Positions 1,848 to 59,835 of a stretch of 64,000 bases of DNA are shown piece by piece; within the stretch, counting starts at the first letter, position 1; each line of letters opens with the position of its first letter. The notes under the pieces are model-generated. The model was given only the letters and a program-made list of their open reading frames with translations, was not told where the DNA came from and did not search any database. This DNA is from Azonexus sp. GTDB taxonomy: Bacteria; Pseudomonadota; Gammaproteobacteria; Burkholderiales; Rhodocyclaceae. Made by a program: the position numbers and the translations under genes. Location of the stretch: the NCBI GenBank assembly GCA_017983755.1, contig JAGOAU010000004.1:95628-159627 (forward strand). Reading direction: 5' to 3'.

Positions 1848-2923
1848 TCGATAAGGACGGGCTGGCCGCCTGGTTGCGGCTGACCCTGATCCCCGGCCTT
1901 GGCGGCGAGACGCAAAGAAAGCTTCTCGCCGCTTTCGGTTTACCGGAAGCGATTTTCGCCGCCGGACGGCTGGCCACCCGCGCCGTGGCCGGCGACCGTG
2001 CCGATCTCCTGTTCGAATTCGACCCTGCCGAAGGCGTCGACCGCAGCCTCTCCTGGGCCGCGCAACCCGGCCAGCACATCGTCACCCTGGCCGATGCCGA
2101 CTACCCGCAGGCCTTGCTGGAGATCGCCGATCCACCGTGTCTGCTTTACGTGCGCGGCAATCCGGCACTGCTGCGCAGACGCGGGCTGGCCATGGTCGGC
2201 AGCCGCAACGCAACCCCTCAGGGCATGCAAACGGCAGAAAGTTTTGCCAGAACCCTGGCCGGCAAGGGCCTTGCCATCATCAGCGGCCTGGCGCTCGGCA
2301 TCGATGCGGCGTCCCATCGCGGCGCCCTGGCCGCCGGCGGCGAGACCATCGCCGTCATTGGCACCGGTGCCGACCGCCTGTACCCGGCCCGCAACCGCGA
2401 ACTGGCCCTGGCCATTGCCGAACGCGGCGCCATCGTTTCCGAATTTCCCCTCGGCACGCCAGCCATCGCCGCCAATTTTCCGCGCCGTAACCGCATCATT
2501 TCCGGCCTGTCGCGCGGCGTGCTGGTCGTCGAAGCGGCGCCGGAAAGCGGCTCGCTGATCACCGCGCGGCTGGCCGCCGAGCAGGGCCGCGAGGTGTTCG
2601 CCATTCCCGGTTCGATTCATTCACCGGTCGCCCGCGGCTGCCACAAGTTGATCAAGCAGGGTGCCAAACTGGTCGAGACGGCCCAGGACATTCTCGAAGA
2701 GTTCGGGAATTACCGGGAATCGACGGAGGTCGAACCAGCCGAGATTCCCGGCGGCGACGAAAACGCCGTGCTCGCTGCGCTCGGCCACGATCCCTGCTGC
2801 CTCGACGACCTCGCCGAGCGTACCGGACTGGCCGCCGACCAGCTGCTGACCGAACTGCTGACGCTGGAGCTGGTTGGCCAGGTCGCCACCCTGCCCGGCA
2901 ACCGCTACCAGCGCCTCGCCTGA
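1844..2923 (+). CDS. dprA: DNA processing protein DprA (Smf), competence
   Basis: Binds incoming single-stranded DNA during natural transformation and loads RecA on it. The 359-aa protein has an N-terminal helical part (about 1-60), a Rossmann-like DprA core with MVGSRNATPQG, SGLALGIDAASHRGAL and FPRRNRIISGLS, and a C-terminal winged-helix domain (about 295-359). It starts at GTG 1844, overlapping the previous stop. DprA occurs in many non-competent bacteria, so alone it does not prove transformation. It matters here because the window is rich in an uptake-signal-like repeat. Confidence 0.96.
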   Translation: MIDKDGLAAWLRLTLIPGLGGETQRKLLAAFGLPEAIFAAGRLATRAVAGDRADLLFEFDPAEGVDRSLSWAAQPGQHIVTLADADYPQALLEIADPPCLLYVRGNPALLRRRGLAMVGSRNATPQGMQTAESFARTLAGKGLAIISGLALGIDAASHRGALAAGGETIAVIGTGADRLYPARNRELALAIAERGAIVSEFPLGTPAIAANFPRRNRIISGLSRGVLVVEAAPESGSLITARLAAEQGREVFAIPGSIHSPVARGCHKLIKQGAKLVETAQDILEEFGNYRESTEVEPAEIPGGDENAVLAALGHDPCCLDDLAERTGLAADQLLTELLTLELVGQVATLPGNRYQRLA

Positions 2924-3001
2924 GCCCCCCATATATGTAGACGGCTTGCCAAGCCGCGCGCCGGGCACTTATCATGCCCCGGCATCCAACCGACAGAACC
3001 C

Positions 3002-5527
3002 ATGACAAAAAAGCTGATCATTGCCGAAAAACCCTCCGTCGCCGCCGACATCGCCAAGGCGCTGGGGGGCTTTACCAAGCACGACGACTACTACGAAAGC
3101 GAGTCGCACGTGCTTTCCTCGGCCATCGGCCACCTGCTGGAACTGTCCTGCCCCGAAGAATTCGAGGTCAAGCGCGGCAAATGGTCCTTCGCCCATCTGC
3201 CGGTGATCCCGCCGCATTTTGCGCTGTCGCCGATCGAGAAGACCGAGTCGCGCCTGAAGCTGCTCAACAAGCTGATCAAGCGCAAGGACGTCGAAGGCCT
3301 GATCAATGCCTGCGACGCCGGGCGCGAGGGTGAACTGATCTTCAACTACATCGCCCAGCACTCCAAAACCACCAAGCCGGTGCAACGTCTGTGGCTGCAA
3401 TCGATGACCCAGGGCGCCATCCGCGACGGCTTCGCCCGCCTGCGCCACGGCAACGACATGCAGGGCCTCGGCGACGCCGCCGTCTGCCGTTCCGAATCCG
3501 ACTGGCTGGTCGGCATCAACGGCACGCGGGCAATGACCGCCTTCAACTCGAAGACCGGCGGCTTCCACCTGACCACCGTCGGCCGCGTGCAGACGCCGAC
3601 GCTGGCCATCGTCGTCGAGCGCGAAAGGAAGATCCGCGAATTCAAGCCGCGCGCCTACTGGGAAGTCGAGGCCGAGTTCGCCGCCCGGGCCGGCAACTAT
3701 ACCGGCAAGTGGTTCGACGAAGGCTACAAGGGTAAGGAAGAAGACGAACACGCCCGCGCCGACCGCCTGTGGGAACAGAACAAGGCCGATGCCATCCGTG
3801 TCGCCACCCTCGGCAAGCCCGGCATCGTTACCGAAGAAGCCAAGCCCGAAACCCGTCTCTCGCCGCTGCTTTTCGACCTGACCAGCCTGCAGCGCGAAGC
3901 CAATGCCCGCTTCGGCTTCTCGGCCAAGACCACGCTGTCGCTGGCACAGGCGCTCTATGAAAAGCACAAGGTGCTCACCTACCCGCGGACCGACTCGCGC
4001 TGCCTGCCGGAAGACTACCTGGCCACGGTCAAGGAAACCATGCGCGTACTGACCGGCGAAGGTGCCGGCAAGGGTCATGACGAGGTGCTGCTCGCCCGCT
4101 ATTCGCCCTTCGCCCACCAGATACTGGCGCGCAACTGGGTGCTGCCGAACAAGCGCATTTTCAACAACGCCAAGATCAGCGACCACTTCGCCATCATCCC
4201 GACGCCGCAGGCGCCCAAGCACCTGAACGAACTGGAACAGAAACTCTACGACTTCGTCGTCAAGCGCTTCCTCTCGGTCTTCTTCCCGGCTGCCGAATAC
4301 CTGGTCACCACCCGCATCACCCGCGTCGAAGGCCATCCCTTCAAGACCGAAGGCAAGGTGCTGGTCAATCCTGGCTGGCTCACCGTGCACGGCAAGGAAG
4401 GCCAGGAAGGCAGCGAAGGCAACCTGGTTGCGGTCGACGCCGGCGAAAAGGTCAAAACCGAGGAAGTCAGCGTCAAGGCCAACGAGACCAAGCCACCACC
4501 GCGCTACTCGGAAGCGACCCTGCTCAGCGCCATGGAAGGCGCCGGCAAGATGGTCGACGACGAGGAACTCAAGGCGGCGATGGCCGGCCGCGGCCTCGGC
4601 ACGCCGGCGACGCGCGCCCAGATTATCGAGAACCTGATCGGCGAACAGTACATGCACCGCGAAGGCCGCGAGTTGATCCCAACCGCCAAGGCGTTCTCGT
4701 TGATGACGCTGCTCAACGGCCTCGGCGTCACCGAACTGACCCAGCCGGAACTGACCGGCGAGTGGGAATGGAAGCTCGGCCGCATAGAGAAAGGCGAATT
4801 CACCCGCGCCGAATTCATGCGCGAAATCGCGGAAATGACCCGCCACATCGTCGAGCGCGCCAAGACCTTCGACAGCGACACCATTCCCGGCGATTTCGGC
4901 GTGTTGACCGCGCCGTGCCCGCGCTGCGGCGGCCAGATTCGCGAAACGTACAAGAAATTCCAGTGCGGCGGCTGCAACTATTCGCTGTGGAAGATCGTCG
5001 CCGGGCGCCAGTTCGAGCCGGCCGAAATCAACACCCTGATTACCGAAAAGCAGATTGGCCCGCTGACCGGGTTTCGCAACAAGATGGGCCGTACTTTCGC
5101 CGCCGCCATCAAGCTGAACGACAACATGGAGCCGGAATTCGATTTCGGCCAGGACAAGACGGGTGACGAGGCCAATGCCGAACCGGTCGACTTCTCCGGC
5201 CAGCAAAGCCTCGGCAAGTGTCCGAAATGTGCTGCCGGCGTCTACGATCTCGGCACCTCCTACGTTTGCGAGAAATCCGTCGGTCCGGCCAAAACCTGCG
5301 ATTTCCGTTCCGGCAAGATCATCCTTCAGCAGCCGATCGATGCGGCCCAGATGCAGAAGCTGCTGGCCGACGGCAAGACCGATCTGCTGAAGGAATTCGT
5401 TTCCAACCGCACCCGCCGCAAGTTCTCGGCCTATCTGGTGGCCAAGGACGGCAAGGTCGGTTTCGAATTCGAGAAGAAGGCAGCGGCCAAGAAGCCGGCC
5501 GCCGCCAAGAAAAAGGCCGAAGCCTGA
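3002..5527 (+). CDS. topB: DNA topoisomerase III (type IA)
   Basis: Cuts and passes single strands, decatenating DNA and resolving recombination intermediates. The 841-aa protein starts with the TOPRIM domain (KLIIAEKPSVA; DAGREGELIF). The active-site tyrosine is residue 327 in TYPRTDSR. Two C-terminal zinc-ribbon-like modules follow (CPRCGGQI ... CGGC and CPKCAAG ... C), and the tail is Lys/Ala-rich (KKAAAKKPAAAKKKAEA), likely non-specific DNA binding. It lies 78 bp after dprA on the same strand. A copy of the dispersed repeat lies in frame at 4426-4457 and encodes AVDAGEKVK. Confidence 0.97.
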   Translation: MTKKLIIAEKPSVAADIAKALGGFTKHDDYYESESHVLSSAIGHLLELSCPEEFEVKRGKWSFAHLPVIPPHFALSPIEKTESRLKLLNKLIKRKDVEGLINACDAGREGELIFNYIAQHSKTTKPVQRLWLQSMTQGAIRDGFARLRHGNDMQGLGDAAVCRSESDWLVGINGTRAMTAFNSKTGGFHLTTVGRVQTPTLAIVVERERKIREFKPRAYWEVEAEFAARAGNYTGKWFDEGYKGKEEDEHARADRLWEQNKADAIRVATLGKPGIVTEEAKPETRLSPLLFDLTSLQREANARFGFSAKTTLSLAQALYEKHKVLTYPRTDSRCLPEDYLATVKETMRVLTGEGAGKGHDEVLLARYSPFAHQILARNWVLPNKRIFNNAKISDHFAIIPTPQAPKHLNELEQKLYDFVVKRFLSVFFPAAEYLVTTRITRVEGHPFKTEGKVLVNPGWLTVHGKEGQEGSEGNLVAVDAGEKVKTEEVSVKANETKPPPRYSEATLLSAMEGAGKMVDDEELKAAMAGRGLGTPATRAQIIENLIGEQYMHREGRELIPTAKAFSLMTLLNGLGVTELTQPELTGEWEWKLGRIEKGEFTRAEFMREIAEMTRHIVERAKTFDSDTIPGDFGVLTAPCPRCGGQIRETYKKFQCGGCNYSLWKIVAGRQFEPAEINTLITEKQIGPLTGFRNKMGRTFAAAIKLNDNMEPEFDFGQDKTGDEANAEPVDFSGQQSLGKCPKCAAGVYDLGTSYVCEKSVGPAKTCDFRSGKIILQQPIDAAQMQKLLADGKTDLLKEFVSNRTRRKFSAYLVAKDGKVGFEFEKKAAAKKPAAAKKKAEA
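4426..4457 (+). repeat. Dispersed TGCGGTCGAC repeat copy inside topB
   Basis: Exact core (4429-4438) followed by GAAAA and then AAAA tracts. It is a nearly ideal copy although it is read as topB codons (AVDAGEKVK). Confidence 0.7.
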
Positions 5528-10824: not shown

Positions 10825-12111
10825 ATGGTTCCCCACCTCACCACCGCCCTGACCGGCCCCCTGCTCGAACTCGAGCGCAAGTTCCTCGAAAGCAGCACGC
10901 AGATCGAACACTGGCTGCGCGCGCAGTGGCAGGAATACAGCCCGCCCTTCTACTCGTCCTGCGATCTGCGCAATTCCGGCTTCAAGCTGGCGCCGGTCGA
11001 CACCAACCTGTTCCCCGGTGGCTTCAACAACCTGAACCCGGCCTTCCTGCCGCTCTGCGTGCATGCGGCGATGGTCGCCATCGAGAAGATCTGCCCGGAA
11101 GCGCGCAACCTGCTGCTGATCCCGGAAAACCACACGCGCAACCAGTTCTACCTGCAGAACGTCGCCCAGATCGCCGCCATCCTGCGCCAGACCGGACTCA
11201 ACGTCCGCATCGGCTCGCTGCTGCCGGAAATCGACAAACCGACGCCGATCGAGCTGCCCAACGGCCAGAGCCTGCTGCTCGAACCGCTGGTGCGCGGCCA
11301 GTACCGCCTCGGGCTGGACGGCTTCGACCCCTGTGCCATCCTGCTCAACAACGACCTCTCGGCCGGCATCCCGGAAATCCTGCAGAACCTGCACGAACAG
11401 TTCGTCCTGCCGCCGCTCCACGCCGGCTGGGCTGTGCGCCGAAAGTCCAATCATTTCGCCGCTTACGACGAAGTGGCCACTAACTTCGCCAAGGAAATCG
11501 GCATCGACCCGTGGCGCATCAACCCGGCCTTTTCCGTCTGCCGCAGCATTAACTTCCACGAACGCCAGGGCGAGGAATGCCTGGCCGCCAACGTCGCCGC
11601 CGTACTCGACCTGGTGCGCGAAAAGTACAAGGAATACGAGATCGACGAGACACCCTACGTCGTCGTCAAGGCCGACGCCGGCACCTACGGCATGGGCGTC
11701 ATGACGGTGCGCGACGCCGACGAAGTGATCGCCCTCAACCGCAAGCAACGCAACAAGATGAGCGTCGTCAAGGAGGGCCTGGAAGTCTCCGAGGTACTGA
11801 TCCAGGAGGGCGTCCATTCCTTCGAGACGCTGAATGACGCGGTGGCTGAACCGGTGATCTACATGATCGACCGCTACGTCGTCGGCGGCTTCTACCGCGT
11901 CCATACCGGGCGCGGCAAGGACGAGAACCTCAACGCGCCGGGCATGCACTTCGAGCCGCTGGCCTTCGACACCGGCTGTAGCCTGCCCGATTACCGCTGC
12001 GGCAACCCGGATTCGCCGCCCAACCGCTTCTACGCCTACGGCGTCGTCGGCCGCCTCGCCTGTCTGGCGGCAGCCGTTGAACTGGCGCGGTCGACACCCG
12101 AAAACGAGTAG
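10825..12111 (+). CDS. gshA: Glutamate-cysteine ligase (proteobacterial short type)
   Basis: First and rate-limiting step of glutathione synthesis: joins glutamate and cysteine with ATP. The 428-aa protein belongs to the betaproteobacterial/Acidithiobacillus type, not the larger E. coli GshA. Recognisable parts include FYSSCDLRNSGFKLAPVDTN and LFPGGFNNLNP near the N-terminus and the ATP-grasp-like VVVKADAGTYGMGVMTV at about 275-290. It is followed after 8 bp by gshB. The last codons and the stop are carried by a repeat copy (12084-12117). Confidence 0.93.
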   Translation: MVPHLTTALTGPLLELERKFLESSTQIEHWLRAQWQEYSPPFYSSCDLRNSGFKLAPVDTNLFPGGFNNLNPAFLPLCVHAAMVAIEKICPEARNLLLIPENHTRNQFYLQNVAQIAAILRQTGLNVRIGSLLPEIDKPTPIELPNGQSLLLEPLVRGQYRLGLDGFDPCAILLNNDLSAGIPEILQNLHEQFVLPPLHAGWAVRRKSNHFAAYDEVATNFAKEIGIDPWRINPAFSVCRSINFHERQGEECLAANVAAVLDLVREKYKEYEIDETPYVVVKADAGTYGMGVMTVRDADEVIALNRKQRNKMSVVKEGLEVSEVLIQEGVHSFETLNDAVAEPVIYMIDRYVVGGFYRVHTGRGKDENLNAPGMHFEPLAFDTGCSLPDYRCGNPDSPPNRFYAYGVVGRLACLAAAVELARSTPENE

Positions 12112-12117
12112 AAATCA
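12084..12117 (+). repeat. Dispersed repeat copy spanning the gshA stop codon
   Basis: CGCGGTCGAC (one base off the core) followed by GAAAA and GAAAT at normal spacing. The gshA TAG lies between the tracts and the gshB ATG follows 3 bp later. Confidence 0.55.
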
Positions 12118-13091: not shown

Positions 13092-14104
13092 TCGCTGCCC
13101 TGGCCCTGCTCCTGACGGCCTGCGGCCGCACCCCGCTGCAGGAACAGCAGGCCTACGTCTTCGGCACCCGCGTCGAGGTCATTGTCGTCAGCGCCGAGGC
13201 GGAACAGGGCCGCCAGGCCATCGCCGCCGTCCTGCGCGAATTCGACCGCCTGCACCGCGCCTATCACGCCTGGCAACCTTCCGAGCTTATGACCCTGAAT
13301 TCGGCGATTTCCGAGGGTCGACCGCAACCGGTCAGTCCGGAACTCGCCGCCCTCGTCAGCGAGGCCCGGCAGCTCAGCCAGCAGGGCGACTACCTGTTCG
13401 ACCCCGGCATCGGGCAACTGATCAAACTCTGGGGCTTTCAGGCCGACGAGTTCAAGGCCGAGGTACCGCCGGCTGCCGACATCGCCGCCTGGCTCGCCAA
13501 AAAGCCCTCGATCGCCGACATCACGGTCGCCGGCAACACCGTCAGCAGCAGCAACCGCCACGTCGCCCTCGACTTCGGCGGCTACCTGAAGGGCGTCGCG
13601 CTCGACCGCGCCGCCGACATCCTACGCGCCCAGGGCATCCGCAACGCGCTGATCAACATCGGCGGAAACGTCATGGCGCTCGGCAGCAAGGAAGGCCGCA
13701 AGTGGCGCGTCGGCATCCAGCATCCGCGCCAGCCGGGGCCGCTGGCCACGGTGGAACTGGGCGACGGCGAAGCAATCGGCACTTCCGGCGATTACCAGCG
13801 TTTCTTCGAAGTCGATGGCAAGCGCTACGCCCACCTGCTCGACCCGCGCAACGGCTTCCCGGCCGACCACACGCAGGCCGTCACCATCCTCATCCCGGCC
13901 GGCGCCAAGGCCGGCACGCTTTCGGACGCCGCCTCCAAGCCGATCTTCATCGCCGGCCCCGAGCATTGGCGCGAGATGGCGCGAAAAATGGAAATCGGCC
14001 TGGTTTTGCGCGTCGACCGCGACAGCCGGATTTTCGTCACCGAAGGCCTGCGCCAGCGCCTCGAATTCGTCGGCAAGCCGCCGGAAATGACCGTCGTTGA
14101 ATAG
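13076..14104 (+). CDS. apbE: FAD:protein FMN transferase ApbE, lipoprotein
   Basis: Attaches FMN covalently to Thr/Ser of exported flavoproteins such as Nqr/Rnf subunits. The 342-aa protein has a lipoprotein signal (lipobox LLTAC, Cys at about residue 17). Family motifs include FGTRVEVIV, LDFGGYLKGVALD, NIGGNVMALG and the Mg-binding C-terminal region with THTQ-type GFPADHTQAVT and SDAASKPIF. The ATG at 13076 overlaps gshB. No flavoprotein substrate gene is in the window. A repeat copy lies in frame at about 13300-13330. Confidence 0.93.
   Translation: MQRFLIAALALLLTACGRTPLQEQQAYVFGTRVEVIVVSAEAEQGRQAIAAVLREFDRLHRAYHAWQPSELMTLNSAISEGRPQPVSPELAALVSEARQLSQQGDYLFDPGIGQLIKLWGFQADEFKAEVPPAADIAAWLAKKPSIADITVAGNTVSSSNRHVALDFGGYLKGVALDRAADILRAQGIRNALINIGGNVMALGSKEGRKWRVGIQHPRQPGPLATVELGDGEAIGTSGDYQRFFEVDGKRYAHLLDPRNGFPADHTQAVTILIPAGAKAGTLSDAASKPIFIAGPEHWREMARKMEIGLVLRVDRDSRIFVTEGLRQRLEFVGKPPEMTVVE
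13301..13330 (-). repeat. Dispersed TGCGGTCGAC repeat copy inside apbE
   Basis: Exact core (13317-13326) on the minus strand, then GAAAT and GAATT tracts at the usual distance, within apbE codons. Confidence 0.6.
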
Positions 14105-21541: not shown

Positions 21542-21913
21542 GTGGAACAAGCCTTCGCCAGACGCTATCGCCTGACAAAAACGGATGAGTTCTCATCCGT
21601 TTTTGGTTTCAGGAGGGCGATTCGCGGCAAGTTGCTGATGCTGCACTACCAGCCGCGTGGCGAGGGTTTCAGCGATGCCCGTCTGGGAATCGTGGTCGGC
21701 AAGAAACTGCTCAAGAGGGCGGTCGACCGCAACCGGGTCAAGCGGGTGATCCGCGAGCAGTTTCGCCGCCTGCGGCCGCAACTGCCGCCGGTGGATCTGG
21801 TGGTTCGCCTGGCCGTCAAGCCGGCGCCGCTCGATGCCAGGGCGCTGGCCGGCGATTTTCTCGCCCTGCTGGAAAAGCTGCAGCGGCCAAGGCCGCCGCG
21901 GGAAGAACGATGA
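21542..21913 (+). CDS. rnpA: Ribonuclease P protein component
   Basis: Protein cofactor of RNase P, which trims the 5' end of tRNA. The 123-aa protein opens [19 protein letters not shown] and carries the RNase P signature [20 protein letters not shown]. It uses a GTG start (21542), 17 bp after rpmH, and overlaps yidD by 4 bp. The VDRN codons contain the exact 10-mer core of the dispersed repeat, but without A-tracts and in a conserved protein motif, so I do not count it as a repeat copy. Confidence 0.97.
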
Positions 21914-23811: not shown

Positions 23812-25158
23812 GTGAAATCCGACACCATCGCCGCCATCGCCACGGCCCCCGGCCGCGGCGGTGTCGGGGTGATCCGCATCTCGGGCAGCAATTTGCTGCC
23901 CTTTGCTTTTGCGCTGACCGGCAAGACGCCAAAGCCGCGCTACGCGACGCTGGCCGATTTCCGGGCGGCCGACGGTTCGACGGTCGACAGCGGCATCCTG
24001 CTCTTTTTCCCCAATCCGCACTCCTTCACCGGCGAGGACGTCATCGAACTGCAGGGCCATGGCGGCCCGGTGGTCATGCAGATGCTGCTCGCCCGCTGCC
24101 TCGACCTCGGCGCGCGGCTGGCCGAACCCGGCGAATTCAGCCGGCGCGCCTTCCTCAACGGCAAGATGGACCTCGCCCAGGCCGAGGCAGTGGCCGACCT
24201 GATCGACGCGGCGACGGCCAGCGCCGCCCGTTCCGCCGTGCGTTCGCTACAGGGCGAGTTCTCGCGCGCCATTGGCGAACTGAATGAGGAACTGATCAAC
24301 CTGCGCATGCTGGTCGAGGCGACCCTCGACTTCCCCGAAGAAGACATCGATTTCCTCAAGGCTGCCGATGCCTTCGGCCGCCTGCAGCGCCTGCAGGCGA
24401 AGCTGGCCGAAATCTTCGACCGCGCCGGCCAGGGCCGGCTGCTGCAGGCCGGCCTGCATGTCGTCCTCGTCGGCCAGCCGAACGTCGGCAAGTCATCGCT
24501 GCTCAATCGCCTGGCCGGCGACGAACTGGCGATCGTCACGCCGATTGCCGGCACCACGCGCGATGCGTTGCGGTCGACCATCCAGATCGAGGGAATTCCG
24601 CTGCACATCATCGATACCGCCGGCCTGCGCGAGACCGAGGACGAGGTCGAGAAGATCGGCATTGCCCGCAGTTGGCAGGAAATCGAGCGGTCGGATGTGG
24701 TTCTTCTGCTGGTCGATGCCCAGGCCGGCGTCAGCGAAGCCGACCGCGAAATCCTCGCCAGGCTGCCGGCCCGCCTGCAGCGGGTCACGGTGCACAACAA
24801 GATCGACCTCACCGGCCGCGCCGCCGAGCGTCACGACGAGCCCGACACGGTCGCCATTTCGCTGTCGGCGCGTTCCGGCGCTGGCATCGACCTGCTGCGC
24901 CGGGAACTGCTGCGCATCGCCGGCTGGCATCAGGCCGAAGACGTCTTCATCGCCCGCGAGCGCCACCTGCGCGCGCTCGCCACGGCGCAGGAACATGTCG
25001 CGGCGGCGCGCAATGTCGTCGAAGGCCGCCTGCCGGCGCTCGAACTCTTTGCCGAGGAACTGCGCCTGGCGCAGCATTCGCTCGGCGAAATCACCGGAGA
25101 ATTCACCGCCGACGACCTGCTCGGCGTGATCTTCAGCCGTTTCTGTATCGGCAAGTAG
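23812..25158 (+). CDS. mnmE: tRNA uridine-5-carboxymethylaminomethyl GTPase MnmE
   Basis: With MnmG modifies wobble uridine 34 of several tRNAs. The 448-aa protein begins at GTG 23812 with [22 protein letters not shown], the folate-binding domain start. The G domain has [12 protein letters not shown] (P-loop), the GTTRD switch and [13 protein letters not shown], and the C-terminus is FSRFCIGK with the essential Cys. It is the last gene of the rpmH operon core. Confidence 0.98.
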
Positions 25159-25993: not shown

Positions 25994-26629
25994 ATGTCAC
26001 AAACCAGCATTTTTGGCTATTTTCGGCGGTCGACCGCAGCTGTCGTGGTCGCCCTGCTGGCGGCCTGCGCCGGCGGTCCGGGCGGGACGCAAGGCGATGG
26101 TACGGCGCCGCCGCGAGCGGCCAGGACGGCTACCCTGCAGTCCGGCTACGCCTGCTGCAACCTGCGTTACGACGGCGACCAGATCAAGGATTCCAACCTC
26201 GGTCAGCTGCCGTTCATCGCGGCGGGAACGCCGGTCCGGGTGAAGACGATCGACGACAACGTCGCCCAGGTCGATGTCGATGGCCGGCCGATGCGCATGG
26301 TGCTCGAGAATCGCGGCGCGGAGACGATCCAGCAGTGGCTGGCGCGGCTCGTCGTCGGCGAAGACCCGCGCACCAGGCTGGCCGCCTTCCCGCCCGCCGT
26401 GCGCGACGCGATCAGGGCCGGCAAGCTGGCCAAGGGGATGACGCGGGAACAGGTGATCATGGCCGTCGGCTATCCGCAGACCAGCGACAAACTGCCCCTG
26501 GACGGACCGCACTGGCGCTACTGGTGGTCCGGCTTCTCGCCCTATTACGTCTATTGGTCACGCGACAAGGTCAGCCGCATCGACGGCCAGGGCGAAGTCG
26601 TCGGCAACGTCATTTTCAAGGGCAGGTAA
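25994..26629 (+). CDS. Lipoprotein with OmlA/BamE-like C-terminal domain
   Basis: A 211-aa lipoprotein: its signal peptide ends at lipobox LLAAC (Cys at about residue 25). The middle is unassigned. The C-terminal 80 residues (GMTREQVIMAVGYPQTSDKLP ... WSRDKVSRIDGQGEVVGNVIF) resemble the small SmpA/OmlA fold. The signal peptide codons FGYFRRSTAA are encoded by a full copy of the dispersed repeat. Whether it belongs functionally to the pigment operon 37 bp downstream is open; it could share its promoter. Confidence 0.7.
   Translation: MSQTSIFGYFRRSTAAVVVALLAACAGGPGGTQGDGTAPPRAARTATLQSGYACCNLRYDGDQIKDSNLGQLPFIAAGTPVRVKTIDDNVAQVDVDGRPMRMVLENRGAETIQQWLARLVVGEDPRTRLAAFPPAVRDAIRAGKLAKGMTREQVIMAVGYPQTSDKLPLDGPHWRYWWSGFSPYYVYWSRDKVSRIDGQGEVVGNVIFKGR
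26010..26040 (-). repeat. Dispersed TGCGGTCGAC repeat copy in a lipoprotein signal peptide
   Basis: Exact core (26029-26038) on the minus strand, then GAAAA and AAAAA tracts at ideal spacing. It provides codons for the signal peptide of the 25994 gene. Confidence 0.78.
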
Positions 26630-36548: not shown

Positions 36549-36610
36549 GTCGGGCCTCGAGTCGATCAGGCCGGAATTTTAGACCAGAACCCGGCGCGCC
36601 GGGGTTGGGC

Positions 36611-37426: not shown

Positions 37427-37430
37427 GGAC

Positions 37431-38078
37431 TCAGGTGGGAAAATGGCCGAGATCGAGAAAATGTTCCCACAATTGCTGCCACACCGGCCACTCGTGACCG
37501 CCGGGGATGGTGTGGCGGGCGGCCGCCGGGAAGCGTTCGGCAATCCGCTGCATGCCAGCGGCGAAGCGGTCCTCGCGGCCGTAGCCGACGAAAACCGGCA
37601 GACCGGTTGGCGGGCGCTGCAGCCAGCGCCACATGCGGAATTCCGGATCGGCCAGTTCTTCCGGTGTCGCCTGCCAGTGATCGAGGCCGCCGGCGCGGTC
37701 GATGGCGCTGGCCGTCAGCCGGCTGCCCGGATAAGGGGCGAACAGGCAGAGGCCGTCGATGCAGCCCGGCGTGTCGGCGGCATGGCAAAGCGCAAGCAGA
37801 CCGCCGAGCGAAATTCCGCCGAGCCAGATTTTCTCGTAGCCCTGACGATGAGCTGGAGCGAGAACCTCTTCCTGAACGGCGGGCAGTGCCGAGCCGGCAG
37901 AAATTGCACCTAGATCGAGGTCGACCGCAACCAGGTCGAGCGCCAGCCGGCGGCGGGTGACGGCGGCGAAGAAATTGGCGGTAACGAAATCTTCAGCGCG
38001 CATGTAGGCGCCGGGCAGCAGCACCAGCAAATTTGGCGCGCCGGTGGTCTGGCGCAGGGTTGGCAGCGGCTCGCTCAT
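37431..38078 (-). CDS. Alpha/beta hydrolase of the aryl polyene cluster
   Basis: A 215-aa hydrolase with the nucleophile elbow GISLGG near residue 92, an acid in FVGYGREDRF and His in PGGHEWPVW. Small and single-domain, without a signal peptide. It occupies the place where the E. coli cluster has a thioesterase, so chain release or editing is a reasonable guess. It overlaps the MMPL gene by 4 bp. Confidence 0.75.
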   Translation of the reverse strand: MSEPLPTLRQTTGAPNLLVLLPGAYMRAEDFVTANFFAAVTRRRLALDLVAVDLDLGAISAGSALPAVQEEVLAPAHRQGYEKIWLGGISLGGLLALCHAADTPGCIDGLCLFAPYPGSRLTASAIDRAGGLDHWQATPEELADPEFRMWRWLQRPPTGLPVFVGYGREDRFAAGMQRIAERFPAAARHTIPGGHEWPVWQQLWEHFLDLGHFPT

Positions 38079-40399: not shown

Positions 40400-40962
40400 C
40401 TGTCGGCGAGCGGTTCGATGAGCAGCAGCGAGCGGTCGCCGTCGGCCTGCAGGTACTCGATGCTGCGGATCTGGTCGCGGCTGCCGCTGACCGTGATGCG
40501 CTGGACCAGCGCGGCGATCTTCTGTTCGCTGGGCAGCAATGTGAGCACCCACTTTTCCGGATTTCCCGACAAATGCAGGAGATAGTTCTTCTCAAGCGCG
40601 GCACGGTTGCCGTTCAGCGTGCCGCGCAGGCTGTCGACGAAGGCGAGCGCTTCCGGCTGGTTGGCGAGGTTGATGCTCAGTTTCTGTTTTTCCCGCTCGA
40701 TGCTCAGCAGGTCCTTGTCAAGCCGCAAGGTTTCCGGCTTCGGCATCAGCGTGCGCTTTTCCAGCCGGTCCGGGGCGCTATAGGTCAGCTCGCCGGTGGA
40801 GACGATCGGCCGGTCGAGCAGCGCGATGTATTTCTTCTCGACGAATTTCGCGGTGCCGCCCTTGTGCCGGGCGAGATCGTTCATCAGCTGGGTGACGTCG
40901 AAGGCGGCAAAAACCGGCAGGGCGAGGCCAAGCAGCAGGAGGCCGGCGAAAAGTCGTTTCAT
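40396..40962 (-). CDS. LolA-like lipoprotein/glycolipid carrier (ApeL-like)
   Basis: A 188-aa periplasmic protein with a signal peptide (residues 1-19, ending VFAA) and the LolA-type half-barrel sequence: FDVTQLMNDLARHKGGTAKFVEKK, LDRPIVSTGELTYSAPDRLEKRT and TLRLDKDLLSIE. In aryl polyene clusters this protein probably shuttles the finished pigment lipid across the periplasm. It overlaps the acyltransferase before it and the MMPL exporter after it by 4 bp each. Confidence 0.88.
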   Translation of the reverse strand: MKRLFAGLLLLGLALPVFAAFDVTQLMNDLARHKGGTAKFVEKKYIALLDRPIVSTGELTYSAPDRLEKRTLMPKPETLRLDKDLLSIEREKQKLSINLANQPEALAFVDSLRGTLNGNRAALEKNYLLHLSGNPEKWVLTLLPSEQKIAALVQRITVSGSRDQIRSIEYLQADGDRSLLLIEPLADR

Positions 40963-41873
40963 GGGTTCTTCTGCCAGAAATCGAAGAAATTGAACCAGTT
41001 GTACGGCGCTGCCCGGCAGAAATGCGTCAGGCGGTCGGCGTAATTCTGCATCGCCGCGCGAATGGCGGCGTCGCGTTCGGTGCGCGGCGTCGCCGAAAAA
41101 TCGGCCAGCGGCTCGAAATGGATCTGATAGCGATTGCCGCCGAGATAGAGGCCGGTCATGAAGAATACCGGCCGGCCGAGCATGGCGGCGGTGCGGAAGG
41201 GGCCGAGCGGAAACGGCGCCATTTCGCCGAGAAAATCGCAGTCGACCGTGGCATCGTCGCCGAGGCCGCGGTCGGCCAGCATGCCGACGACGTAGCCGCG
41301 GTCGAGCTTGTCGCGTGCTTCGAGCATCGCCCCCAGTTGGCCGAGGGCGATGATGTCGTCGCTCGCCGCCGGGTTGATCGCCGCCAGCGTGGCGTTGATC
41401 TTGCGCGCATTTTCCTCGTACATCAGCATCGCCACCTTGAGCCCGGCTCGGCCGCGGCCGACGGCGCGCAGGACTTCGAAGCTGCCGAGGTGGGCGCCGA
41501 TCAGCAGCGCGCCGGGCTGGCGGGCTGCCGCAGCGTGCAGTGCCTCGGCGCCGATGACTTCGATGTCGAACAGGTCGAAACGGTTGTTGAGCAGGTAGAT
41601 GCGGTCGTGGATGGTGCTGGCGAAGCTGAATACATGGCGGAAGCCATCGGCCCAGCCGGACCAGCGACCGAGGGCACGGTTCAGGTAGGCGCGGCTGTAG
41701 CGCCGGGCGCGCGGCGCGAACAGCACGTAGTAGGCGGCGATGCCATAGAGCACGACGCGGCCGACGCGGCGGCCGAGGGTCAGTGAAATCCACACCATCA
41801 GCCTGAGGATGGCGAGATTGCTCCGTTCCTGCTGGCGCAGCCAGTCGGCGCGCTGCGGCGCTTCCCGATTCAT
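40959..41873 (-). CDS. LpxL/HtrB-type acyltransferase
   Basis: A 304-aa membrane acyltransferase of the lipid A late-acyltransferase family: one N-terminal hydrophobic segment, the HX4E motif in GAHLGSFEVLRAV near residue 125, and ENARKINATL. It probably transfers the aryl polyene or a fatty chain to the glycolipid anchor. It overlaps both neighbours by 4 bp. Lipid A biosynthesis itself is less likely given the operon. Confidence 0.88.
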   Translation of the reverse strand: MNREAPQRADWLRQQERSNLAILRLMVWISLTLGRRVGRVVLYGIAAYYVLFAPRARRYSRAYLNRALGRWSGWADGFRHVFSFASTIHDRIYLLNNRFDLFDIEVIGAEALHAAAARQPGALLIGAHLGSFEVLRAVGRGRAGLKVAMLMYEENARKINATLAAINPAASDDIIALGQLGAMLEARDKLDRGYVVGMLADRGLGDDATVDCDFLGEMAPFPLGPFRTAAMLGRPVFFMTGLYLGGNRYQIHFEPLADFSATPRTERDAAIRAAMQNYADRLTHFCRAAPYNWFNFFDFWQKNP

Positions 41874-42172
41874 GCGGCGGGTGTCAGGCTGCCGGCGGCG
41901 ACCTCGCGGCCGGCAGCGCGCACGGTGAAGCCGATCGCCCCGCCGGCCTTTTCCTGCAGGGTGAAGGTGAGCAGTTCGCCGGGTCCGGCCGGGCTGAAGA
42001 ACTTGGCATTGCCGATCTGCCAGCCGCCGTCCGGCCGGCCGCGCAATTGTTCGGCAAAGATGATGGCGCGGTCGAGCAGGACGACGCCCGGCACGATGGG
42101 GCGGCCGGGGAAATGGCCGGCCAGCGCGGGATGGTCGGCCGGCACCGGCCAGGTGAATTCAGCGGCCGGCAT
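41870..42172 (-). CDS. Short hotdog dehydratase (ApeI-like)
   Basis: A 100-aa hotdog domain: HPALAGHFPGRPIVPGVVLLDRAI holds the catalytic His and the conserved FPGxPIVPG loop seen in ApeI. Half the size of FabZ-type partners but complete for this family. It works on 3-hydroxyacyl-ACP with the second dehydratase gene. It overlaps the ligase gene by 14 bp. Confidence 0.88.
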   Translation of the reverse strand: MPAAEFTWPVPADHPALAGHFPGRPIVPGVVLLDRAIIFAEQLRGRPDGGWQIGNAKFFSPAGPGELLTFTLQEKAGGAIGFTVRAAGREVAAGSLTPAA

Positions 42173-43502
42173 GCGTCACCTTGTCGGCGTACAACGCCTG
42201 CAACTGATTGCGTGGCAGCTTGCCGGTGCTGTTGCGCGGCAGCGCATCCAGCAGCACCAGTGGCCGCGGCAGGAAGACCGGGTCGATGCGCTGCCGCATT
42301 TCGCTGACGAGCTGCCGGCTGCTCAGGCCGGGGGCGACGACGAAGGCGCAGAGACGGGTGATGCCGTCCGCCGTCTGCGCGTCGGGCAGGAAGAAGGCGG
42401 CATCGACAACGCCGGCGATGGCGGCGATCTCGTGGTTCAGGTAGGCCAGCGAGGTCCGTTTGCCGGCGATGTTGACCATGTCGGCATTGCGGCCGTGGAG
42501 CAGGAAGCGGCCGTCGGCGCGGATCTCGATCAGGTCGGAAAGCGGCACCCGGCCTTCGACGTGGCCGCCACCGGCGAACGTCGTCTCGTCCTGCTGTTCG
42601 AGCGTGACGCCGGGCAACAGGTCCCAGGCGAGGTCGGCGGTGGTGCGCCGGCTGGCCAGCTGGCCGCTTTCGGTCGAGCCGTAGATTTCGTGGAGCGGCG
42701 CCCGGCAGGCAGCCTCGGCATCGCGCGCCAGCTGCGCCGAGAGCGGCGCGGTGGCCGACAGCAGCAGGTCGACGGCGGGGATTTCGAGGCCGGCGGCGAG
42801 CAGCGCCGACAGGTGGAAGGGCGTTGTCACCAGCAGGCGTGGCGCCGGCACGGCCTGCAGGGCGGCGACGATGTCCTGCGGGTAGAAGGGCTTGCCGGAC
42901 CAGAACGGCGAGTGGCCGTGCAGGGCGAGCAGCACCGTCGATTCGAAACCGTAGCTGTGCTGCGCCGGCACTGTGCCGACGATGCTGTGCGGCTGCCGCA
43001 GCAGGCCGAGGCGTTCGGCTTCGAGGCGGCCGCTCAGCACCAGCTTGCCCCAGGTCTTGTCGTGGGCGACCGGGCGGCCGGTCGAGCCGGAGGTGAACAG
43101 TCGGGCGGCGATCAGCTCGGCCGGAATGGCCGGGATTTTTGCCACTTTTGCGCCGTCGACCGCAGCCATCGCCGGAAAATCCAGGCGCGGCAGGTCGAGG
43201 CTGTCGAATTCGCCGTCGCTCAGGCAATAGACATCCGGGCATTCGGCCGCGATCTGGCGCAGCGTTTCGGCCGACTGCGAGGCCGGTTGCAGGCTGGTCT
43301 TGCCGCGCAGCAGGCCGGCCGCGAAGCCGAGCGTGAAGCGGTAGCGATCGTGGCAGACATTCAGTTGGTGGCGGCCCGCCGGCAGCAGGGCAGCCAGCGC
43401 CTCGGCCTCGGCGATGAACTCGCGGATGCGGATCGGGCCGTCGGCGCGCCAGGCGAAGATGTCGTCGAGGCTGGCGTGCCCGAGCAGCGGGGCCAGGCTC
43501 AT
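42159..43502 (-). CDS. AMP-dependent acyl-ACP ligase (ApeH-like)
   Basis: A 447-aa ANL-family adenylating enzyme: P-loop LFTSGSTGRPVAHDK at about 137-151, YGSTESG, LLHGRNADMVNIAGKR hinge and C-terminal catalytic Lys in RNSTGKLPRN. Short for the family because the N-terminal domain is reduced. It activates the hydroxybenzoate made by the chorismatase and loads it on ACP. A repeat copy at 43135-43166 encodes AVDGAKVAKI. Confidence 0.9.
   Translation of the reverse strand: MSLAPLLGHASLDDIFAWRADGPIRIREFIAEAEALAALLPAGRHQLNVCHDRYRFTLGFAAGLLRGKTSLQPASQSAETLRQIAAECPDVYCLSDGEFDSLDLPRLDFPAMAAVDGAKVAKIPAIPAELIAARLFTSGSTGRPVAHDKTWGKLVLSGRLEAERLGLLRQPHSIVGTVPAQHSYGFESTVLLALHGHSPFWSGKPFYPQDIVAALQAVPAPRLLVTTPFHLSALLAAGLEIPAVDLLLSATAPLSAQLARDAEAACRAPLHEIYGSTESGQLASRRTTADLAWDLLPGVTLEQQDETTFAGGGHVEGRVPLSDLIEIRADGRFLLHGRNADMVNIAGKRTSLAYLNHEIAAIAGVVDAAFFLPDAQTADGITRLCAFVVAPGLSSRQLVSEMRQRIDPVFLPRPLVLLDALPRNSTGKLPRNQLQALYADKVTHAGR
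43135..43166 (-). repeat. Dispersed TGCGGTCGAC repeat copy inside the ligase gene
   Basis: Exact core (43155-43164), then CAAAA and AAAAA tracts at ideal spacing. Confidence 0.72.
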
Positions 43503-44167
43503 CGCTGGCCTGGCAACGGCGCCTGGCGCTGCCGGCCGGCGCGGAAGGCGCGAATCGTGTCGGCGATGCTGGCGCGATCAGCGGGCGGCAGGACGAGATG
43601 GCGGCACAGATGCTCGCCGGCGAACATCGCCAGGATCAGCGGCAGCATCAGGAAATTGGCGAAGACCGACCAGACGGCAGCCGGCGCCAGCAGAATCAGG
43701 CCGGTCGACACGGCGGCGACGGTGACGAAGAAAGCGGTCCACGCCACCGTCACCTGCCGCGTGTAGCGCAGCTTGGCCGGCGACAGGCCTTCCGGGTGGG
43801 CGAAGCGCGCCAGCTGGGTGATCAGCGGCTCATGGCCGGCACCCAGGGTGCGACCGAAGATGACGGCGAACGCCAGGTTGGTGCCGACGTGTTCCACGTA
43901 ATGAAGCAGCGCGCCGTTCTCGCGCAGTTGCGGCCAGGCCCAGGCCAGCACGGCGAGCGCCGCGAGAGCGCCGCTGGCGATCCACAACGGGTTGCCGAGG
44001 CGCCGCAGCAGCATGGCGGCGACGATGACGATCGGCGTCGCGGCGAGCGCGGTGGAAAAATCGGAGGTGCCGCCAATGCTGTTGCGATGGGCGAAGATCG
44101 CCCAGGCCACCGCCAGGCCGCCGACGGCCGCACTGCGCAGCAGGTTGGTGGCGCCCGCCGTACTCAT
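43499..44167 (-). CDS. Multi-pass membrane protein of aryl polyene clusters (COG4648-like)
   Basis: A 222-aa protein with about six hydrophobic segments and conserved GTNLAFAVIFGRTLGAGHEPLI and LRYTRQVTVAWTAFF. Proteins of this type stand between the ACP and ligase genes in many aryl polyene operons (ApeG position). Biochemical role unknown. Overlaps both neighbours by 4 bp. Confidence 0.8.
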   Translation of the reverse strand: MSTAGATNLLRSAAVGGLAVAWAIFAHRNSIGGTSDFSTALAATPIVIVAAMLLRRLGNPLWIASGALAALAVLAWAWPQLRENGALLHYVEHVGTNLAFAVIFGRTLGAGHEPLITQLARFAHPEGLSPAKLRYTRQVTVAWTAFFVTVAAVSTGLILLAPAAVWSVFANFLMLPLILAMFAGEHLCRHLVLPPADRASIADTIRAFRAGRQRQAPLPGQR

Positions 44168-44445
44168 TTCGTCCGCTGTGCCGCGATGTGGGCGGCGAGC
44201 GCGCGCAGCGACGAGAAGATGCGGATGTTGTCCTCGTTGTCCGAACGCAGCTGGAAGCCGTAGCGTTTGGAAATCACCAGCGCGAGTTCGAGGATGTCGA
44301 TCGAATCGAGGCCAAGGCCTTCGCCGAACAGCGGCGCGTCGGGGTCGATGGTGTCGGCGGCGATCTCGAGATTGAGCGCGCTGACGACCAGTTCGGCGAT
44401 TTCGGGCAGGAGGGCGGCGCTGGCTTCCGGGGTGGTGGCTGGCAT
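44164..44445 (-). CDS. Acyl carrier protein 2 of the aryl polyene synthase
   Basis: A 93-aa ACP. Ser48 in GLDSIDILEL is the phosphopantetheine site, and helix II/III sequences such as LELALVISKRYGFQL are typical. The C-terminal extension is longer than in primary-metabolism AcpP. It starts 14 bp after the ketosynthase stop. Confidence 0.92.
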   Translation of the reverse strand: MPATTPEASAALLPEIAELVVSALNLEIAADTIDPDAPLFGEGLGLDSIDILELALVISKRYGFQLRSDNEDNIRIFSSLRALAAHIAAQRTK

Positions 44446-44459
44446 GTCGGGATGATCCG

Positions 44460-45716
44460 TCAGGGTTGGGCGGCAACGGCGCGGAACGCGAGCACCGCGT
44501 TGCTGCCGCCGAAGGCGAATGAGCTGGCCAGGGCGGCGCGCAGCGGCTGCTGGTGGCGCGCCGTGGCGACGTGATCGACGCCGGCGCAGGCCGGGTCGAG
44601 GTGATCGAGATGGGCGGTCGGCGGAATGGCGCTCTCGCGCAGGGCGAGGACGGTGATGATGGCCTCCAGGGCGCCGGCGGCACCGAGCAGGTGGCCGTGC
44701 AGCGACTTGGTGGCGCTGACCGCCAGGTGTTCGGCGCGCTCGCCGAAGACGGTGCGCAGCGCCTCGATTTCCACCGGGTCGCCTTCCGGCGTCGCCGTGC
44801 CGTGGGCATTGACGTAATCGATGTCGGCGGCGCCCAGGCCGGCATCGGCTAGCGCCGCACGCAAGGCGCGCACCTGCCCGGCGGCGGCCGGACGAACCAG
44901 ATGGCTGTGATCGCAGGTTGTGCCGTAGCCGGCGAGTTCGCCGTGGATAACGGCGCCGCGGGCGACGGCATGGTCCCAGTCTTCGAGCACCAGCGCCGCC
45001 CCACCCTCGCCCAGCACCAGTCCGCTGCGGTCCGCCGCGAAGGGCCGGCAGCAGTGCGGGGCGCCGGCCTCGTCGGCGTTGGCCAGCACGCGCAGGGCTT
45101 CCCAGGCGCGAGCGACGGCATAGGCCTGCGGCGTGTCCGAGCCGCCGGCCAGCATGACCGGCGCTTCGCCGCTGCGTACCCGGCGGAAGGCTTCGCCGAT
45201 GGCGATCGACGACGAGGCGCAGGCCACGGTATGGCTCATGCTGACGCCGCCGAGGCCGAGCTGGATCGAAATCTGCGCGTTGGCCGCATTGTTCATCCCG
45301 AGCACCACCGAGAGCGGCGACAGGCGCTGCTGCCCGTGCTGCCAAAGTTCGCGGTAGCCCTTTTCGTAGGCCATGGTGCCGCCCAGCGCCGTGCCCCAGG
45401 CGACGCCCCAGTCCTCGCGCTCGTCGCCCTGCGGCGCGCGTGGCAGGCCGGCATCGTCCCAGGCGGCGAAGGCAGCGGCGACGCCGAGCTGGGCGAAGCG
45501 GTCGAGCATGCCGGCGAGCGGACGGCCGAGCGCCGCCTCGGCGTCAAAACCGGGGCAGCCGGCGAAGGGCATGTTCAGTGGCCGTGGCAGGTCGTCGGTG
45601 CGCAGCAGGCGGATTGCCGATTCGCCAGCCAGCAGGCGCGCGAAGAAATCGGCGAGGTCGCCGCCGAAGGGGCTGACCAGACCGAGTCCGGTGATTGCGA
45701 CGCGACGCGGATTCAT
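44460..45716 (-). CDS. FabF-like ketosynthase of the aryl polyene synthase
   Basis: A 418-aa full ketosynthase with Cys166 in VACASSS, His305 in AHGTATPEGD and Lys337/His342 in TKSLHGHLLGAAG. More FabF-like than the ApeO-type enzyme, so it may do the first condensation on the aryl starter or act as a second homodimeric KS (ApeR-like). It sits between the two ACP genes. Confidence 0.92.
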   Translation of the reverse strand: MNPRRVAITGLGLVSPFGGDLADFFARLLAGESAIRLLRTDDLPRPLNMPFAGCPGFDAEAALGRPLAGMLDRFAQLGVAAAFAAWDDAGLPRAPQGDEREDWGVAWGTALGGTMAYEKGYRELWQHGQQRLSPLSVVLGMNNAANAQISIQLGLGGVSMSHTVACASSSIAIGEAFRRVRSGEAPVMLAGGSDTPQAYAVARAWEALRVLANADEAGAPHCCRPFAADRSGLVLGEGGAALVLEDWDHAVARGAVIHGELAGYGTTCDHSHLVRPAAAGQVRALRAALADAGLGAADIDYVNAHGTATPEGDPVEIEALRTVFGERAEHLAVSATKSLHGHLLGAAGALEAIITVLALRESAIPPTAHLDHLDPACAGVDHVATARHQQPLRAALASSFAFGGSNAVLAFRAVAAQP

Positions 45717-53918: not shown

Positions 53919-54449
53919 AACGTTGGGTTCCGCGCCTGACGCGCGGCATTACTTTCTTTTGCTTCGCCAAAAGAAAGTAAGCAAAGAAAAGGCGACCCTG
54001 GGTCGGTGCCCGGCTTTGCCGGGTTCCCTGCGCTACTCGGGTTTCGCGGGGGCTGCGCAACTCGGGGCTGTGCCCCTCAGACAGTGCTCGCCCTTTATCC
54101 GCGAATCCCTGCGTTGCTCGGCACCTCCCAAGGGCCCGGTGAACCAGTGGTGGTGTTGCGGTCGACGGGCAAAAATGGCTGTTTTTCGGGGTCGACCGCA
54201 GCAGACGAGCTGCGGTCGGTTTTCGGGTCCCCATGTGAAGCGCGGAGCAACGGAGATGGGCCGGGGGCAGTCGGCGAGGACTGTCTGAGGGGCAACGCCC
54301 CGAGTTCCGAAGCCGCCCGGCCCGTCGAGTAGCGCAGGGGAGTCGGCGCAGCCGACCGCGCAACCTGGGGTGGCTTTTTCTTTGGCTACTTTCTTTTGGC
54401 CACACAAAAGAAAGTACGCCCGCGCGTCAGGCGCGGAAACTAGCGTTTC
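53917..54449. repeat. About 530-bp imperfect inverted repeat (gltS - P-type ATPase gap)
   Basis: The whole 570-bp gap between gltS and the P-type ATPase gene is a palindromic structure and holds no convincing gene. Left arm 53917-54140 and right arm about 54225-54449 match each other in reverse complement over most of their length. Examples: ACTTTCTTTTG ... CCAAAAGAAAGTA on both ends, CCCTGCGCTACTCG, and CCCCTCAGACAG near the middle. Each end also has its own short stem (CTTTCTTTTGCTTCGCCAAAAGAAAG). The loop contains two face-to-face copies of the TGCGGTCGAC repeat. Open frames of 66-174 codons within it on both strands look like by-products of the repeat. Confidence 0.8.
54154..54203. repeat. 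Two dispersed repeat copies facing each other, sharing their A/T tracts
   Basis: Core on plus at 54157-54166 and core on minus at 54191-54200, joined through AAAAATGGCTGTTTTT. Together they make a near-perfect hairpin at the centre of the large inverted repeat. Confidence 0.82.
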
Positions 54450-59718: not shown

Positions 59719-59802
59719 GTCGTGCCGCCCGCAGGCAAGAGGTTGAAAACGCGGAAATTATAAGGCTGTTGCGCTGCAGCAGCGATGCCTGCGCCAGGCA
59801 TC

Positions 59803-59835
59803 GGTTGCGGTCGACCCCGGGAAAAGGGCCAAATC
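59803..59835 (+). repeat. Dispersed TGCGGTCGAC repeat copy, intergenic
   Basis: GGTTGCGGTCGAC, GAAAA and AAAT at usual spacing, in the recA upstream region, 41 bp before the LexA box. Confidence 0.78.

Follow-up and report, generated by a model that had tools for sequence, protein, structure and literature searches.

A dispersed core with two phased A/T tracts, a probable DNA uptake sequence of the genus Azonexus

Specificity of DNA uptake is stated to be known from two bacterial families only, according to passages of a 2025 account (PMC12616744). The Pasteurellaceae carry the uptake signal sequence (USS), with cores AAGTGCGGT (Hin) and ACAAGCGGT (Apl), and the Neisseriaceae carry the DNA uptake sequence (DUS; GCCGTCTGAA). 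The motif of H. influenzae is given as aaAAGTGCGGTnrwwwwwnnnnnnrwwwww (PMC1852404), and its second A/T segment is centred 12 positions past the first (PMC1626085). High copy number, strong consensus, preference for non-coding DNA, dialects and loss of competence in some lineages are named as traits of USS and DUS in passages of four accounts, which also report that opposed pairs can act as terminators (PMC12616744, PMC1852404, PMC1626085, PMC3630211). The two downstream A/T segments, found in USS and not in DUS, have an anticipated role in melting and kinking; in the same passages, this role is a proposal and the USS receptor (ComN) a prediction (PMC12616744). For Verminephrobacter, passages on transformation suggest some sequence preference and give no motif (PMC4212676). 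We describe here a dispersed motif found in a 64,000-nucleotide stretch of Azonexus sp. (GCA_017983755.1, contig JAGOAU010000004.1, positions 95,628 to 159,627), referred to as the window. Its full form is G[T/C]TGCGGTCGAC followed by an A-tract, GGC and a stronger A/T tract, and on sequence evidence it is very probably a genus-specific DNA uptake sequence of the uptake-signal kind, for natural transformation.

The core TGCGGTCGAC occurs 24 times in the window, and every position listed in an earlier note, made from the letters of the window, was exact. That note had estimated a G+C content of about 65% and a chance expectation well under one copy; the measured values are 66.3% and 0.22, the latter from 100 dinucleotide shuffles of which the richest held 1 copy. 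The assembly that holds the window (2,515,346 bases, 43 contigs, 74% complete; listed as G000) contains 586 copies in its 2.5 Mb, 295 forward and 291 reverse, vs 13 for the reversed pattern, which was the only comparison for the whole-genome count. Comparison with an order-4 Markov model was made on 464 kb, consisting of the window and 20 further stretches of the same genome, to which the within-genome results below refer. This sample holds 117 copies vs 7.2 expected, so that the core is far over background by either measure. Permutations of the same ten letters (n = 400) gave a mean of 2.1 and a maximum of 18 copies. The excess over the Markov expectation was 110 for perfect copies (117 in all) vs 46 for all single-mismatch variants combined (193 copies, of which 147 were expected).

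A logo of the 117 copies revealed G at -2 in 85% and T or C at -1 in 91%, in agreement with the G-T/C said to precede the core, as well as C at +12 in 63%. The core is followed by an A-tract at +14 to +18, a G/C-rich segment at +20 to +23 and an A/T tract at +25 to +29, and composition returns to background past about +31. The signal thus reaches beyond codons for Val-Asp. Measurement of tract spacing, a check proposed earlier, placed the tract centres at +16.3 and +26.9, giving 10.5 bp. The second tract (at least three of the four positions +25 to +28 being A/T) was present in 109 of the 117 copies, at a background A+T of 0.36, the value also obtained for permuted 10-mers at the same position. 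The tail was kept in coding (n = 83) and intergenic (n = 34) copies, the first tract being stronger in the latter, indicating that the tail lying outside the core, and its conservation in non-coding copies, are real. The variants TGCGGTCAAC (25 copies, second-tract A/T 0.89) and CGCGGTCGAC (23 copies, 0.71) retain the tail and so identify core changes that are tolerated; TGCCGTCGAC (15 copies, 0.28) is background-like.

USS resemble this motif in combining a short core with two downstream A/T segments about one turn apart, and also, as far as the passages go, in occurring in hundreds of copies on both strands and in their substitutional origin, non-coding excess, dialects and some opposed pairs (PMC1626085, PMC1852404, PMC12616744). 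The string TGCGGT is common to the published H. influenzae core and the main Azonexus dialect, and GCGGT is what that dialect has in common with the USS. The sequence traits of USS found here comprise copy number, the two-tract tail, substitution, an excess of perfect over mismatched copies and non-coding preference. The differences concern the lineage, which in Azonexus is Rhodocyclales (class Betaproteobacteria in NCBI), and the motif itself: the Azonexus core is longer, reaching TCGAC or TCAAC, GGC lies between the tracts, density is lower, and the second A/T tract is the more conserved. Whereas GCGG is invariant in the USS cores AAGTGCGGT and ACAAGCGGT, the core is G[TC]TGCGGTCGAC here, with ACGG in G002 and other genomes. 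Because the core differs, we do not assign the motif to the USS family of the Pasteurellaceae proper. Dialects within one family, overlapping dyads, absence in some family members and inverted pairs associated with terminators are reported for DUS in passages of PMC3630211 and have counterparts here. Unlike the Azonexus motif, DUS have a CTG-containing core, unrelated to the one described here, and no A/T tracts, and their receptor, ComP, is known. HIP1, Chi, KOPS and matS are likewise short oligomers of high copy number, from which the Azonexus motif differs by its lack of polarity. To our knowledge, none of them has the core-plus-two-tract structure. Among the matches listed in the open-licence literature, there was no report of the motif or of uptake sequences in Rhodocyclaceae/Rhodocyclales, Dechloromonas or Azoarcus, which is not proof of absence.

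Coding status was assigned with a home-made gene caller. Intergenic copies account for 34 of 117 in 7.9% of the sequence, a 3.7-fold enrichment between genes. The 83 coding copies lie on the gene strand in 53 cases and on the opposite strand in 30, and one frame, xxT-GCG-GTC-GAC, dominates the same-strand copies (43/53). Close opposed pairs number five, three overlapping as the perfect 14-bp dyad TGCGGTCGACCGCA and two being 34 bp apart. The pair at 54157 and 54191 of the window, between convergent genes, is predicted to form a hairpin of -30.9 kcal/mol (z -3.13), a stability reached by 3 of 200 shuffles. Spacing of the copies is slightly over-even, with a variance-to-mean ratio of 0.79 in 5-kb bins that 4.2% of 2000 random placements matched or undercut. 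No strand polarity was seen, since orientation runs were near expectation on five pieces and both strands are used on either side of dnaA; orientation along replication, as in KOPS or Chi, was thus not found. With degenerate copies counted, the sole copy-free gap above 9.5 kb in the 464 kb is a 20.6-kb island (G+C 0.56 vs 0.625 for the contig sample) encoding a phage-type integrase and a DUF3987 protein, along with a weak match to a CHC2 zinc finger that falls below cutoff. As one case, this motif-free integrase island is an illustration rather than a statistic.

The origin of the copies was investigated at 10 of the 24 window sites, all coding, by 31 pairwise alignments with orthologous DNA, using the longest match from each of up to seven relatives. 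The alignments were gapless across the motif in 24 of 31, this genome had at most 5 extra bases, and relatives differed by substitutions, indicating that these ten copies arose in place by base substitution and not by insertion. Origin by mutation rather than insertion is also reported for USS in passages of PMC1626085. The copies had been called a real repeat family and not codon bias; the signal is indeed genome-wide, tail-bearing and not codon bias, but the alignments at the ten coding sites speak against reading it as a copied element.

Among named relatives, those nearest by mnmE are Betaproteobacteria bacterium HGW-6, Dechloromonas sp. STC_125 and Azonexus hydrophilus DSM 23864. The genus, which appears to be Azonexus in a wide sense that takes in the former Dechloromonas, was surveyed in 76 genomes with the pattern CGGTCRAC-N15-AWWW (core plus second tract), for which reversed controls gave 0 to 15 copies. 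There were 365 to 1378 copies in 40 genomes and 6 to 136 in 36; Azonexus hydrophilus is motif-poor (74 vs 3 for the reversed control). With the core-plus-tract pattern in 249 sampled genomes from 68 genera of the family, seven of the eight genus members drawn had 610 to 1064 copies and the eighth had 84, and no genome of the 67 other genera exceeded 19, the top two having 19 and 18. Outside the family, the exact 10-mer alone was scored in 24 genomes of the order and occurred 0 to 89 times, many counts being near the reversed control. As a side observation, four genomes of other family genera (G106, G154, G200 and G260, the last three from g43) had 13 to 19 core-plus-tract copies vs 1 to 2 in the control, and two further g43 members, G093 and G233, had no such excess. 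The copies in these slight-excess genomes include one with a full tail, CGGTCGACGCCGAAAAACGGGCCAAAT, and possibly represent DNA acquired from Azonexus.

An mnmE tree was built for 58 of the 76 genus genomes with an Accumulibacter outgroup (of 60 genomes selected, G022 and G332 lacked a full-length match). Its deepest branches carry motif-rich genomes. Changes between the motif-rich and motif-poor states number at least 10, of which 6 are forced by well-supported branches, vs 17.8 with shuffled labels; high counts are clustered on the tree. The tree fits an ancestral motif with several losses, gain and loss not being strictly separable and a single gene being a thin basis. In motif-poor G322 (102 copies), the listed copies look clustered in L351 (G322:C14:82001-92000) and other stretches, for example 8 in about 7.5 kb around genes for PepSY-TM and HlyD-type proteins, which might reflect import of tagged DNA from a relative rich in the motif.

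With no pattern imposed, the over-represented k-mers were TGCGGTCGAC and TGCGGTCAAC in G010 and G020, TGCTGCGGTC and CGCGGTCGAC in G031, and CACGGTCAAC and CCGGTTGACC (reverse GGTCAACCGG) in G002. When CGGTCRAC and the second tract were fixed, the commonest upstream bases were GTTG/GCTG in this genome (77/110), GCCA/TCCA then CGGAAAAA in G002 (18/29) and TTCA in G222 (7/23). In logos made without a fixed tail, the distance of the second tract from the core was unchanged in G002, G010, G020 and G031. Thus, the core varies between species and the position of the tail is constant. Samples of 100 to 140 kb from G016, G026 and G321 contained 0, 1 and 0 core-plus-tract copies, respectively. An alternative uptake motif in motif-poor genomes was sought as a k-mer family and rejected, no comparable 9- or 10-mer family being found in 140 kb of G016 or 100 kb of G026; the 60-kb sample of G005 was too small for this purpose. 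In 140 kb of G021 (L145, L146, L203-L207), a CRISPR-like repeat, present about 36 times, accounted for most of the k-mer excess.

The window was also scanned with a weight matrix trained on sequence outside it, which at a threshold of 8 bits returned 41 sites, including all 24 exact cores. Sites below about 13 bits are doubtful, since the best reversed controls score 13.2 and 11.3. Four one-mismatch sites had been proposed earlier; all exist within 20 bases of the positions then given (at 10736, 12086, 40153 and 55623), and three have one mismatch, but 10736 has two. Further degenerate copies occur, for example at 14012 and 54780. The sites, followed by two neighbouring genes of interest, are as follows.

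2014..2048, minus strand: exact core (2036-2045) inside dprA (by Pfam), 27.1 bits
4426..4460, plus strand: exact core inside a topoisomerase gene, 32.9 bits
7668..7702, minus strand: exact core, 25.3 bits
9010..9044, plus strand: exact core, called intergenic between convergent calls, 38.7 bits
10714..10748, minus strand: degenerate, two mismatches, called intergenic, 14.1 bits (best reversed control 13.2)
12083..12117, plus strand: degenerate copy CGCGGTCGAC, 23.4 bits
13295..13329, minus strand: exact core, 26.8 bits
13789..13823, minus strand: doubtful degenerate copy TGCCATCGAC, 13.7 bits (best reversed control 13.2)
13990..14024, minus strand: degenerate copy CGCGGTCGAC, 25.5 bits
14717..14751, plus strand: degenerate copy TGGGGTCGAC, 15.6 bits
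15311..15345, minus strand: exact core, 31.2 bits
17882..17916, plus strand: exact core inside gyrB, 20.4 bits, gapless in 4/5 alignments
21700..21734, minus strand: exact core, 20.2 bits, gapless in 7/7 alignments
24566..24600, plus strand: exact core inside mnmE, 25.7 bits, gapless in 7/7 alignments
26007..26041, minus strand: exact core, called intergenic, 33.7 bits
28134..28168, minus strand: exact core, 28.6 bits
29753..29787, minus strand: exact core, 34.2 bits
32588..32622, plus strand: exact core, 24.4 bits
36365..36399, minus strand: exact core, 29.7 bits
37898..37932, minus strand: exact core, 29.9 bits
40131..40165, minus strand: degenerate copy CGCGGTCGAC, 11.5 bits, under the best reversed control (13.2)
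43133..43167, minus strand: exact core, 38.1 bits
46991..47025, minus strand: exact core, 23.0 bits
47993..48027, minus strand: exact core, 30.7 bits
48158..48192, plus strand: exact core with poor tail, weakest of the 24, 8.2 bits
48596..48630, plus strand: exact core, 28.6 bits
50737..50771, plus strand: exact core, called intergenic, 38.9 bits
54154..54188, plus strand: exact core, left arm of inverted pair between convergent genes, 36.8 bits
54169..54203, minus strand: exact core, right arm of the pair with 54154..54188, 36.8 bits
54758..54792, minus strand: degenerate copy CGCGGTCAAC, 16.8 bits
55620..55654, plus strand: degenerate copy TGCGGTCAAC with full tail, 33.8 bits
59803..59837, plus strand: exact core, called intergenic, upstream of recA, 38.6 bits
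1844..2923, plus strand: dprA, DNA processing protein of transformation (Pfam DNA_processg_A, E 6.7e-78)
59903..61039, plus strand: recA, recombinase of transformation and repair (RecA, E 1.8e-142)

The gene at 23812-25158 is mnmE by Pfam. Since gyrB, dnaN, dnaA and mnmE all lie in the window, it probably covers the origin region. The transformation-related genes dprA and recA flank the probable origin region inside a span of 60 kb, with the motif inside dprA and 88 bases upstream of recA. Elsewhere in the window, genes for ketoacyl synthases, for an AMP-binding enzyme and for a transporter of the MMPL type are clustered at 34555-45716, and a tryptophan-halogenase-like flavoprotein is encoded at 26667-28001; this could be an aryl polyene-type pathway.

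The same genome contains a minor-pilin operon. Its first gene encodes a pilin that matches ComP_DUS (PF16732) and is followed by those for a GspH/FimT-like protein, an N-methyl pilin and PilW, in this order. ComP_DUS matches were found in 34 of 36 genus genomes including this one, motif-rich and motif-poor alike. In the set of pilins collected from the genus, 5 of 30 loci had no pilin frame, and G023 apparently contributed the neighbouring GspH-like frame. A ComEA-like HHH_3 frame is present (G000:C26; 85 bits, open frame of 210 aa); a stronger HHH_3 match sits in an 829-aa frame and is a different protein. ComEC (PF03772) was detected in 71 of 76 genus genomes and in 51 of 51 of high quality. 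The presence and absence of ComP_DUS (PF16732, 36 genomes), ComEC (PF03772, 76), GspH (PF12019, 76) and HHH_3 (PF12836, 76) did not single out a receptor. Broken, split or truncated comEC matches occurred in motif-poor G018, G034 and G346 and in motif-rich G002 and G008; damage in both classes means that there is no clean link with motif loss. In motif-rich G002 (contig C33, 109525-144033) and motif-poor G346 (contig C1, 2218607-2251879), the ComEC match is split, at almost one point of the profile (1-28/29 and 26-267), into two parts separated by about 33 kb, which might reflect insertion of an element into comEC; the short piece in G002 is below cutoff.

Several observations weigh against a role in DNA uptake. 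The ComP_DUS match is weak (41-42 bits), and the nearest solved structures, PilA and PilE, belong to ordinary pilins; none of the 18 chains listed bears the name ComP. The match alone is thus no proof of a receptor. The ComP_DUS-matching pilins of the genus are a mixture with no one obvious ortholog. ComEC was not found in this assembly, whose completeness of 74% can explain the absence. Since ComP_DUS, ComEC, GspH and HHH_3 are present in motif-poor genomes too, none of them explains the split between rich and poor genomes. The bases upstream of CGGTC are weakly defined in G029 (GCTG/GTCG/TTCG, 14/32), G030 (TTGA/TTTG, 11/34) and G323 (GCAG/GTAG, 7/30). The 10-mer, scored as core alone, is in excess over its reversed control in some genomes of other families, among them G047 (89 vs 17), G040 (64 vs 16) and G057 (38 vs 5). 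Exact cores reach 0.23 per kb in this genome, below the approximately 1 per kb given for USS and DUS in passages of PMC1626085. Finally, there was no report of Dechloromonas transformation among the matches listed in the open-licence literature.

The main rival is a nucleoid or segregation protein. The copies would then be bound by a protein that organises the chromosome (a factor of the nucleoid, of segregation or of replication) and bends DNA via the core and the phased A-tracts, on the model of matS, KOPS, parS and SlmA sites. Phased A-tracts are usual in bent-DNA binding sites, the copies are dispersed and slightly over-even, and variation of the core could track a changing protein. We nevertheless regard this explanation as unlikely, because the lack of strand polarity on either side of dnaA argues against KOPS- or Chi-like roles, and bimodal presence in close relatives, many changes on the tree and baseline counts in 67 other genera would be odd for a basic function. 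Moreover, sites bound inside the cell would not be expected to show a larger excess of perfect than of single-mismatch copies, an argument taken from passages of PMC1626085. That the motif is a relic here of a former uptake sequence, left after loss of uptake, appears quite improbable. It would fit the missing ComEC and the small excesses in motif-poor relatives, which look like relics themselves, whereas the strong consensus (117 perfect copies, single-mismatch excess of 46) is as in genomes with active or recently lost uptake, following passages of PMC1626085, and incompleteness of the assembly can account for comEC.

High copy number, inverted pairs and strong consensus are also features of a dispersed mobile or copied repeat, such as a repetitive extragenic palindrome (REP) or a miniature inverted-repeat transposable element (MITE). 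Such an origin is very improbable in view of the gapless alignments (24/31, at most 5 extra bases), with no motif-length insertion at the 10 coding sites of 24 that were compared, the return of the logo to background past about +31 and the location of 83 of 117 copies inside called genes. The palindrome GTCGAC within the core, also the SalI site, and the dominance of one coding frame (43/53) might indicate an oligonucleotide bias of other origin, namely a bias towards certain codons or Val-Asp, a site of methylation or a palindrome like HIP1. This we consider extremely improbable given the intergenic enrichment (34/117 in 7.9%), the 18 copies at most of any permuted 10-mer, the tail at a fixed distance in coding and non-coding copies and the G002 dialect CACGGTCAAC, which lacks GTCGAC and keeps the tail.

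Together, these comparisons strongly suggest that the motif is subject to a force acting on the DNA itself, within a single genus of the family and with changeable specificity. Preferential uptake followed by recombination is the sole process known to us that would leave all these traces, and we infer that the motif drives uptake, that a receptor reads it and that it spreads by uptake bias. The motif is probably a DNA uptake sequence of a third kind, with an architecture like that of the Pasteurellaceae USS and presumably a USS-like mode of action.

According to the mechanism that we propose for such an uptake sequence, this Azonexus species and about half of the species of the genus would be, or would until recently have been, naturally transformable via type IV pili. 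A surface DNA-binding protein, probably a minor pilin, would prefer double-stranded G[T/C]TGCGGTCGAC with two A/T tracts one turn apart; the receptor would read the core, and the phased tracts may let the DNA bend or melt during passage of the outer membrane. If motif-bearing fragments are taken up and recombined more often, base changes that improve the motif would spread through the population. Near-perfect copies would then build up by substitution, most densely where they are cheapest, i.e., in intergenic DNA and in a reading frame that tolerates them, and mobile DNA of recent arrival would be without copies. A shift in receptor preference would give rise to a new dialect, and loss of uptake would leave the motif set to decay.

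We lean, with some reserve, towards regarding the motif as a third self-recognition code, evolved apart from those of the Neisseriaceae and Pasteurellaceae, in free-living environmental bacteria, with several dialects, repeated loss and a constant tail. If this is true, the occurrence of the same tail in two unrelated groups would imply that phased A/T tracts serve a general physical requirement of the machinery for uptake through the outer membrane, the core being read by a separate, fast-changing receptor. A third lineage would provide a comparative test set of 76 species-level genomes with several dialects and many apparent losses, in which the genes for the receptor are predicted to vary together with the dialect and to decay where the motif does. 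The genus includes perchlorate reducers and phosphorus accumulators. If the motif is indeed an uptake sequence, it would mark the flow of DNA between environmental bacteria and may offer a route to transforming strains of this genus.

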